Below are positions 51,619 to 53,644 of a stretch of 55,292 bases of DNA, one piece after another. Below the pieces are notes generated by a model. It was not told the DNA's origin. It ran no database searches and was given only the letters and a program-made list of their open reading frames with translations. Source of the stretch: Candidatus Omnitrophota bacterium (GTDB taxonomy: Bacteria > Omnitrophota > Gorgyraeia > Zapsychrales > Zapsychraceae); contig JAHFGL010000012.1 in NCBI GenBank assembly GCA_023247445.1, positions 1 to 55,292 on the forward strand. Reading direction: 5' to 3'. The position numbers were made by a program, and so were the translations under genes. Position 1 is the first letter of the stretch. Each line of letters starts with the position of its first letter.

Positions 51619-51672
51619 TGAACTTCCTCCTTAACCATCCATCTGTTCTGTTTTTATTTATTTTAAATTATA

Positions 51673-52097
51673 AAAGCAAGCCAATAAGCCGAGTTCTGTG
51701 AGTCTCGATTATTTTTAGGCGAGACTGACGGTTATTCAACTCACTTTATTCCTTACGGAATAAACTCTTGCAGCCTACCCGGGAATTTTGACGAATCGGA
51801 TCAACTCGTTCATGCGCCTTGCGACCCATAATCTTCCCCTATTTGGCCTTGCTCCATGTAGAGATTGCTCGTTTCACTCCCTCACACCCGAAGGTGTTTT
51901 GGGCATCGTCACTGTAGCTCTAATCCTTTTATTCAGGGTTTAAGGAATAGGGTTTGGGTGTTAGCCAAAACTAAAACCTTTCCCCTAATCCCTGCCCCCT
52001 AAATAACGTCCTGCATTAACAGGATACATTACCCTTCGGAGCCCGGACTTTCCTCCTCGCTATACTGAAATAACGAGGCAACCATCTTGGCTTGCTT
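51673..52097 (-). ncRNA. rnpB: RNase P RNA, bacterial type A
   Basis: About 425 nt. Conserved segments: GAGGAAAGTCCGGGCTCC near the 5' end, GGAGCAAGGCCAAATAGGGG, CCCGGGTAGGCTGC and ACAGAACTCGGCTTATTGGC at the 3' end. The ends pair (AAGCAAGCCAA with TTGGCTTGCTT) as helix P1, which sets the limits. P13/P14 seem to be missing, while the region after P8 is enlarged by a heptamer-like inverted repeat (51934-51994). The 5' ~69 nt coincide with the last codons and stop of the RNase H gene. Processes the 5' ends of pre-tRNAs. Confidence 0.95.
51934..51994. repeat. heptamer-like inverted repeat inside RNase P RNA (P9 region)
   Basis: On the RNA strand GGGATTA GGGGAAA GG pairs imperfectly with CCCTATT CCTTAAA CCCTG across about 25 nt. 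It lies between P8 and the conserved ACAGTGACGATG region, where E. coli has the short P9 hairpin. Units are 7 nt, like the dispersed repeats elsewhere in the window. Confidence 0.55.
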
Positions 52098-52493
52098 TTT
52101 GTTTATTGCTTTGGTTGCTAACTGATCAGCATCCTTATTTTGTTCTCGAGGAATGCATTTCATATCAAGCCGCTTAAATCCTTGAGCTAAATGCTGGACT
52201 TGATCAAGAAGCAATTTCAAATTTTCATTTTTAATTTTATATTGGCCTGTAACCTGATTAAAAACCAATTCGCTATCAGTATAAACCGTAACTTGATCCG
52301 CTTTTAAAATTAATCCTTCCTGCAGCGCATAAATTAAAGCCGTATATTCAGCGATATTGTTCGTGGCTGGACCAATTGATTTAGAAATTTCTTTAATTTT
52401 GTTTTTATTTTCAAGAACAACAACACCGATCGCGGCCTCTCCAGGATTTCCACTGCAAGCCCCATCAACAAATATTTCTAATTCCCGGCTCAA
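52029..52493 (-). CDS. rnhA: ribonuclease HI-family protein
   Basis: 154 residues. Catalytic acids: Asp10 (FVDGACSGNPGEA), Glu49 (NIAEYTALIYAL), Asp73 (YTDSELVF) and Asp123 (NKDADQLATKAI). It cuts RNA in RNA-DNA hybrids. The catalytic domain is complete by about residue 132; the last 22 residues (from QAKMVASLFQ to EEESPGSEG) are read from DNA that is also the 5' end of RNase P RNA. The start overlaps the zinc-ribbon protein gene by 4 nt. Confidence 0.92.
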   Translation of the reverse strand: MSRELEIFVDGACSGNPGEAAIGVVVLENKNKIKEISKSIGPATNNIAEYTALIYALQEGLILKADQVTVYTDSELVFNQVTGQYKIKNENLKLLLDQVQHLAQGFKRLDMKCIPREQNKDADQLATKAINKKQAKMVASLFQYSEEESPGSEG

Positions 52494-53218
52494 AGATTAT
52501 CCTCTAAATACAAAATCCTCGTGCACATTTCACAAAAAACAAGCCCCTCATTTAATCTAATATTATTTAGCATCTGTGTTGTAACGTTCATAAAACAACC
52601 ACCACAATTTGATCCATGAATCGCGGTAATAGCCAAGCCATCTTTGTGGTCTAAAATTTTCTCATATCGGCTTAAATAGTTTTTATCAATGCCCGGCAAG
52701 AGTTCTTTACGCTCATTCTCAAGGGATTTAACACGCTCATCAAGGTTTCTAATCTCATCATCAATGGTTTTCTTCTTAATCGCAAATGTCTTTTCAAACT
52801 CAGCAACTTTTTTCTTTTCCTGTTCAATCTCCGCCATGGCCTTATCAGATTCATCATACGACACTAAAATTTGCTCTTCCACAAGCGACTTATCAGCCTT
52901 TAAGCCTTCAATTTCCTGTAATTTTGTCGAATATTCTTTATTCGTTTTTAATAGCGAAAGTTGACCATTCGCCTTTAAAATTCCCTCTTCTTTAGTCTTT
53001 AATTCTAACTCTCGTTCTTTACGTTTTAAAAGAATCGTTTTCAACTGATCATCTAATTCTTTGAGTTTCTTTTTATTATTCTCAAATTCTTCTGTTATGG
53101 CCCTAATAATTTCTGGCTTTTCCTGCAAATCTTTTCTTAAATTATAAATTTCTCCGTCGATTTTTTGTAAATCGATCAACTTTTTAATCTGCGTCTTAAT
53201 AGCCGTATCAGCTACCAT
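52490..53218 (-). CDS. coiled-coil protein with C4-type zinc ribbon
   Basis: 242 residues. About 180 residues of long antiparallel coiled coil (many Lys/Glu/Leu; TNKEYSTKLQEIEGLKADK is the usual hinge region), then a zf-RING_7 zinc ribbon with NCGGC and FCEMC. The family is widespread, commonly beside an RNase H gene as here, and its role is thought to concern nucleic-acid binding. Cytoplasmic. Confidence 0.9.
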   Translation of the reverse strand: MVADTAIKTQIKKLIDLQKIDGEIYNLRKDLQEKPEIIRAITEEFENNKKKLKELDDQLKTILLKRKERELELKTKEEGILKANGQLSLLKTNKEYSTKLQEIEGLKADKSLVEEQILVSYDESDKAMAEIEQEKKKVAEFEKTFAIKKKTIDDEIRNLDERVKSLENERKELLPGIDKNYLSRYEKILDHKDGLAITAIHGSNCGGCFMNVTTQMLNNIRLNEGLVFCEMCTRILYLEDNL

Positions 53219-53270: not shown

Positions 53271-53300
53271 TGGGCACAGAAGGGATCGAATCTTCGACCT
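53271..53300 (-). pseudogene. 3' half of a split tRNA-Val (variable loop to discriminator)
   Basis: Reads AGGTCGAAGATTCGATCC, then CTTCTGTGCCCA: variable loop, T arm, 3' acceptor strand and discriminator A. It joins exactly to the 5' half at 53506-53549 to make 73 nt plus discriminator. The T stem has one A-C mismatch. Directly before it a perfect 9-bp hairpin (GTACTGATT with AATCAGTAC) closes the insert. Confidence 0.7.
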
Positions 53301-53331
53301 CTGTACTGATTTTCCTTTTAATAATTATTGT

Positions 53332-53476
53332 AATCAGTACTGCCCAATTTTAAAGTCATTACCCATGGGCGTAGAAGGGCTCGAACCTTCGACCTTTGCC
53401 ATGTGAGGGCAACACTCTAACCAACTGAGCTATACGCCCATAAAAGAATTCAGAAAAAATCAGTATAGTCCCAATT
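53332..53476. repeat. direct repeats flanking the intact tRNA-Val
   Basis: On the minus strand AATTGGGACTATACTGATT (53458-53476) and AATTGGGCAGTACTGATT (53332-53349) are near-identical and flank the intact tRNA-Val inside the insert. A related AATTTGGGACTA (53660-53671) lies just before the first tRNA of the cluster, so this may be a duplicated tRNA leader. Confidence 0.65.
53366..53439 (-). tRNA. tRNA-Val(CAC), intact
   Basis: Acceptor GGGCGTA/TACGCCC, D arm GCTCAGTTGGTTAGAGT, anticodon stem TTGCC/GGCAA with loop CTCACAT (anticodon CAC), T arm GAAGGTTCGAGCCCTTC, discriminator A. CCA is not encoded. The gene lies entirely within the 205-nt insert that splits another tRNA-Val. Confidence 0.95.
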
Positions 53477-53505
53477 ACCATAAAAATTATTCAGATAAAT
53501 TGGGG

Positions 53506-53549
53506 CTGCCATGTGAGGGCAGCACTCTAACCAGCTGAGCTATGTGCTT
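53506..53549 (-). pseudogene. 5' half of a split tRNA-Val(CAC)
   Basis: Reads AAGCACATAGCTCAGCTGG, then TTAGAGTG, CTGCC, loop CTCACAT, GGCAG: 5' acceptor, D arm and complete anticodon arm of a Val(CAC) tRNA. The T arm is missing and is replaced by CCCCAATT... with its own hairpin. Acceptor positions 5 and 6 (A, C) match the 3' half by compensatory changes relative to the intact tRNA; positions 1 and 2 (A, A) do not pair with C72 and C71. Confidence 0.75.
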
Positions 53550-53570: not shown

Positions 53571-53644
53571 TGGGCCCACCTGGACTTGAACCAGGGACCA
53601 ATTGATTATGAGTCAACTGCTCTAACCGACTGAGCTATGGGCCC
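53571..53644 (-). tRNA. tRNA with CAT anticodon (Ile2 or elongator Met)
   Basis: Acceptor GGGCCCA/TGGGCCC, D arm, anticodon stem GTTGA/TCAAT with loop CTCATAA (anticodon CAT), T arm CCTGGTTCAAGTCCAGG, discriminator A. The anticodon arm and GGTC variable loop are closer to the E. coli Ile2 (lysidine) tRNA than to elongator Met, but I cannot decide by eye. It does not have initiator features. Confidence 0.93.

Follow-up and report, generated by a model that had tools for sequence, protein, structure and literature searches.

Integrative elements whose attachment sites are tRNA genes restore a working gene at the target by rebuilding its 3′ end. REP/BIME sequences, Rickettsia palindromic elements and MITEs are small, non-autonomous, dispersed palindromes, often paired and located in intergenic regions. 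Archaeal tRNAs may contain introns at noncanonical positions or be split into halves that lie apart in the genome. Group I introns, structured RNAs capable of horizontal spread, occur in bacterial tRNA genes (PMC3984707). The double-hairpin elements (DHEs) of fungal mitochondria are described in PMC10085805, citing Paquin et al. (2000), as short, GC-rich, dispersed sequences formed by two adjacent hairpins, patchily distributed between species, thought to be mobile and found in some cases in RNA genes; neither a tRNA cargo nor a location in cognate tRNA genes is reported there. A 2023 survey of the Omnitrophota is silent on introns, repeats and hairpins (PMC10066038), and no description of nested cognate tRNAs was found in the open-access literature.

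The locus considered here lies in a stretch of 55,292 nt (the window) on contig JAHFGL010000012.1 of a Candidatus Omnitrophota bacterium. Its features are all on the minus strand and, read directly from the sequence, follow one another in this order: a tRNA-Met(CAT) gene (53571-53644; ARAGORN; Rfam, 74.6 bits), the 44-nt 5′ half of a tRNA-Val(CAC) gene (tRNA positions 1-44; 53506-53549), an insert of 205 nt (53301-53505), the 30-nt 3′ half of tRNA-Val(CAC) (53271-53300) and a gene for a C4 zinc-ribbon coiled-coil protein (52490-53218; Pfam Zn_ribbon_9, 1.1e-9). The insert is a double-hairpin element with a complete tRNA-Val(CAC) at its centre (53366-53439), which is found by ARAGORN, by Rfam (71.2 bits) and in the tRNA census, while the split outer gene is missed by both programs. 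This inner tRNA is the sole intact tRNA-Val(CAC) found among the 45 tRNAs of a genome rated 95.6% complete. The outer halves match the cognate tRNA over its positions 7-43 and 42-74, respectively, and ARAGORN recognises their joined sequence as a 74-nt tRNA-Val(CAC) in which A1 and A2 face C72 and C71, and A53 faces C61, without being able to pair. The original prediction had described halves, insert and inner gene in this arrangement, had listed the same mismatches (1-72, 2-71 and an A-C in the T stem) and had considered the joined molecule a co-linear tRNA-Val(CAC); all of this agrees with our analysis except the length of the joined tRNA, given there as 73 nt. Elsewhere in the window (51669-52098, minus strand), a class A RNase P RNA overlaps the end of an RNase H-like ORF (52029-52493).

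As also predicted, both ends of the insert are occupied by hairpins. Specifically, hairpin A (a-L-a′) spans 53468-53506, with core arms at 53498-53504 and 53470-53476, and hairpin B (b-L-b′) spans 53303-53340, with the arms GTACTGATT/AATCAGTAC at 53303-53311/53332-53340 enclosing a 20-nt loop. The inner tRNA is flanked by a direct repeat, a′b, present as AATTGGGACTATACTGATT at 53458-53476 and as AATTGGGCAGTACTGATT at 53332-53349. The insert has CAG at its 3′ edge (53301-53303), a trinucleotide that recurs at 53506-53508. In addition, an inverted repeat, CCCAATTT/AAATTGGG, would allow the insert ends to pair with each other; the free-energy fold of the locus does not bring the two outer halves together as a tRNA. 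No group I or group II intron family was detected by Rfam, at E values up to 10, in the window or in the segment 53200-53700.

The history of the site can be read from related genomes, 55 of which were searched and about 30 fetched as loci. In about 20 relatives of the same order, tRNA-Met is directly followed by one uninterrupted tRNA-Val(CAC) with no insert, and in most of these the pair is followed by the same zinc-ribbon gene. The outer tRNA-Val is therefore the resident gene, as this synteny places an uninterrupted tRNA-Val at that very position, and the two halves derive from one gene, as had been proposed; the contrary picture of a tandem of complete tRNA-Val genes with an isolated deletion is not what the relatives display. 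At the conserved site two genomes (G041 and G047; loci L024 and L026) have a decayed tRNA-Val(CAC) pseudogene, and three (G006, G007 and G024; L025, L028 and L032) have no tRNA-Val.

Among the genomes searched, only one relative carries the same nest, namely ‘Candidatus Omnitrophota bacterium isolate nzgw313’ (record JAHFGK010000022.1; hereafter G032, with G000 for the genome of the window), which belongs to another family. A nested-tRNA pattern able to recognise both nests matched this record alone in a set of 84,980 species genomes and had no match in viral contigs. Since the relatives have an empty site and another family repeats the nest, the split layout is not a product of chance. The inner tRNA-Val is identical in the two genomes over 74/74 positions, the next best in the sampled relatives being about 92% identical. 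Hairpin B has the same stem in both (18/18) and a divergent loop (10/20), whereas the flanks are unrelated; in G032 hairpin A is imperfect. The insert ends of G032 can form an equivalent pairing with a compensating change, CCCAACTTTT/AAAAGTTGGG, in line with the pairing originally predicted. In a tree of the zinc-ribbon protein, the gene of the window falls inside its own family, whereas that of G032 stands beside another family and is not sister to it, so that the insert was acquired separately from the genes around it. Identity is much higher in the outer halves (69/74; 40/44 for the 5′ half and 29/30 for the 3′ half) than in the linkers (69/108 plus gaps; p=2.7e-6), a difference that implies either separate insertions into intact genes or a continued constraint on the outer copy. 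In G032 all stems of the outer tRNA-Val pair, yet its anticodon is CAG. As the two outer copies carry different lesions, the sequences favour separate insertions. That is, if related Val-bearing elements entered intact tRNA-Val genes on separate occasions, the outer halves would be expected to be well conserved.

The hairpins of the insert belong to a larger family, here named H and defined by a loop of about 20 nt and a 9-bp stem that score with a covariance model, R2, which took the place of an earlier model, R1, that gave few matches. In an alignment of 18 hairpins the loop is close to ACATCTAAATAAATTTAAGGAA, while the 9-bp stem is variable with compensation: 96.9% of cells are paired, against 13-44% in slid controls, and 6 of the 9 pairs show compensatory double changes. 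Cells with double changes number 26, compared with 7.2 in shuffles; this shuffle control does not amount to a probability, whereas the slid control is clear. The two hairpins of the window pass R2 by construction (38.3 bits for A, 45.5 for B), because they and those of G032 are in the training set, but the model also finds independent H copies elsewhere in G000. Scoring 150 candidates per genome, so that places may be missed, and counting both strands, we obtained at least 98 matches at 62 or more places in G000, and at least 109 in G038, 87 in G026, 85 in G032, 73 in G011, 51 in G033 and 50 in G022; with the same number of candidates there were none in G015, G024 and G028, and none or almost none in G017 and G030. 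In G000, 25 of the 60 H copies outside the insert of the window are found at 200 bp or less from a tRNA, against an expectation of 0.5. H hairpins are thus a dispersed family with a conserved loop and covarying stems, patchy between genomes and strongly clustered at tRNA genes. Copies lacking a tRNA are of two kinds: plain double hairpins, which occur within outer tRNA copies and at numerous further sites, and elements in which just a few nucleotides fill the slot of the tRNA.

Other identities of these hairpins were considered and discarded. Transcription terminators would not account for conserved loops, for copies on either side of tRNAs or for the lack of a T run. The integron attC site was suggested by a likeness of CCCAAC/GTTGGG to its R boxes, but the window has ATTGGG. 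In G033 and G038, hairpins with the stem of B and a new loop lie away from tRNAs, usually beside a second hairpin, and at three loci of these genomes (L033, L037 and L038) H hairpins occur in pairs whose end coincides exactly with a start codon and whose loop contains AGGA. These copies may control translation of the downstream gene; as a general explanation, however, a 5′ UTR structure regulating the ribosome-binding site conflicts with the copies in and around tRNAs.

A scan of the flanks of each tRNA for remnants of that very tRNA on either side and in the proper order shows that the arrangement is not confined to valine. Cognate nests surround 4 of the 45 tRNAs of G000 (Val-CAC, Leu-CAG, Arg-TCT and Cys) and 3 of the 43 of G032 (Val-CAC, Arg-ACG and Gly-TCC). 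Non-cognate pairs of query and locus passed the same scan once in 1980 (G000) and once in 1802 (G032), in both cases isoacceptors at loci already nested. One-sided remnants were seen for Gly-TCC, Pro-CGG, Arg-TCG, Glu and others. With the exception of Gly-TCC of G032, which is flanked by hairpins of another kind, the nests (6/7) share the order a-L-a′-b-[tRNA]-a′-b-L-b′, with a hairpin at each outer end and an imperfect direct repeat of 14-36 nt spanning the tRNA; the score of this repeat was reached by 16 of 1000 shuffles for the window and by 0 to 4 for the other five. CAG bounds the insert on both sides in Val of both genomes, Leu-CAG, Arg-TCT and Arg-ACG and may represent a 3-bp target duplication, although it is only 3 bp long and other sites differ. 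In Arg-ACG of G032, the T-stem pair of the outer copy is that of the un-nested gene of G000, while the inner copy has a different one; the outer copy is thus the resident gene in this case too. Further rearrangements were observed at individual loci. The outer tRNA-Arg(TCT) of G000 (L133; G000:C21:7400-7950) bears separate hairpin insertions besides its nest, two H-like hairpins interrupt, at its T loop, the 3′ part of a second tRNA-Val, itself broken, in G022 (L005:535-629), and in L010 (G052:C70) the 3′ end of tRNA-Val and about 50 bp are repeated three times downstream, as if from integration events.

The explanation that we consider best, with a probability of roughly 0.64, is that a mobile double-hairpin element carrying a tRNA broke the resident tRNA-Val(CAC) and supplied a working copy in its place. 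Specifically, a short element consisting of hairpin a-L-a′, b, a complete tRNA, a′ and hairpin b-L-b′ would have inserted at the variable loop of the resident gene and disrupted it; its own tRNA-Val(CAC) would now serve the cell, leaving the outer halves to decay as a pseudogene. If only some double-hairpin copies carry a tRNA, and if an insertion is viable only when it brings the cognate one, surviving nests would be cognate. Cargo and target could come to match because selection sorts among many different cargoes or because targeting itself makes use of the tRNA sequence. The nested cassette insertion contemplated in the original prediction is supported, and the further nests make it general. 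Two things weigh against this reading. One is the contrast, described above, between well-conserved outer halves and divergent linkers in the two Val nests. The other is that joining the outer halves of Leu-CAG, Cys, Arg-ACG and Gly-TCC gives tRNAs of perfect structure, more than is expected of old pseudogenes. Such copies would fit recent insertion but would fit excision from RNA as well.

The other possibility raised at the outset was indeed intron-like, namely that the insert is excised at the level of the precursor RNA, whose outer halves then become joined, the inner tRNA being a by-product. The perfect outer copies, the better conservation of the outer Val with respect to the linkers, the covarying stems and the pairable insert ends of G000 and G032 would all suit this mechanism, which we nevertheless regard as unlikely. 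The split points vary (D loop, anticodon stem, anticodon loop, variable loop and T loop), an intact cognate tRNA is always present, no Rfam intron family is matched, and the outer Val has three mismatches in the window and a changed anticodon in G032; moreover, a search for tRNA-Glu(TTC), the one needed tRNA missing from the census of G000, where Glu(CTC) alone was found, yielded no split copy either. For Val, an intron or a functional split tRNA is not supported. Far less probable still is that the halves, kept together by the CCCAATTT/AAATTGGG helix, act without ligation as a two-piece tRNA, or as a processing or regulatory structure of this kind: conservation of the outer halves and a helix open to both genomes, with compensating changes, favour the idea, but the mismatched acceptor and T stems in the window, the altered anticodon of G032 and the predicted fold of the locus speak against it. 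A scenario without any mobile cassette, in which a local tandem duplication or template switch was followed by invasion of the redundant tRNA copy by MITE- or REP-like hairpins, is improbable too, albeit the strongest of the three. It would agree with the plain double hairpins scattered inside outer copies and elsewhere, with the direct repeat around the inner tRNA and with the tolerance of redundant tRNAs to insertions. On the other hand, the inner Val is identical across two families whose other Val genes are about 8% or more apart, the tRNA occupies the same central slot in 6/7 nests, which sequential accidents would not yield, and in Arg-ACG of G032 it is the inner copy, not the outer, that departs from the un-nested gene.

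If the element did move and rescue its host, a candidate driver, to be taken as a lead only, may be found in small GIY-YIG nucleases. Small ORFs of this type adjoin split or hairpin-bearing tRNAs in G022, G032 and G038, which recalls GIY-YIG homing endonucleases; the insert of the window contains none. At one locus of G032 (L188:158-448; G032:C159), the ORF lies between an intact tRNA-Gln(CTG) and a tRNA-Gln(CTG) 5′ half that bears a GC-rich double hairpin, and the ORF's 3′ end and a spacer precede both tRNA-Gln copies. In G038 (L015:1098-1454) and G022 (L005, about 223-420), the ORFs are directly downstream of tRNA-Val(CAC) and adjoin a hairpin that starts at the CCA end of the tRNA.

Transfer RNA genes are usually viewed as passive landing sites, whereas here, at several genes and in two families, hairpin elements break them and bring the cognate tRNA along. 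Cognate nests in this genome and in a distant relative point to a little-known kind of mobile element. A broader proposal, to which we give somewhat less than even odds, is that of a selfish element that targets tRNA genes, carries a variant of the gene that it breaks and makes the host dependent on it, choosing cognate targets, spreading between Omnitrophota families and replacing resident tRNA genes one by one. Were the rescue reading true, it would disclose a route by which element-borne copies replace essential tRNA genes, and the way in which an element acquires exactly the tRNA that it destroys would become testable. For annotation, caution is advisable, as several of the tRNA pseudogenes here are in fact split genes that host nested copies, which probably work.

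How, then, does this arrangement compare with the systems described so far? With respect to group I introns, the insert has no catalytic core detectable by Rfam, interrupts tRNAs at varied points and contains an intact tRNA. The nests differ from archaeal split tRNAs in that an intact cognate is always present, the outer Val is damaged and the host is a bacterium. Integrative elements at tRNA sites leave a working gene behind, whereas the H element carries a whole second tRNA and the resident gene stays broken. Unlike REP/BIME sequences, Rickettsia palindromic elements and MITEs, H hairpins have a conserved loop and stems that vary with compensation, and a tRNA can sit centrally between them. 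The nearest described elements, as far as the literature description of them allows the likeness to be drawn, are the mitochondrial DHEs, from which the H element is set apart by the tRNA that it carries within a cognate tRNA gene.
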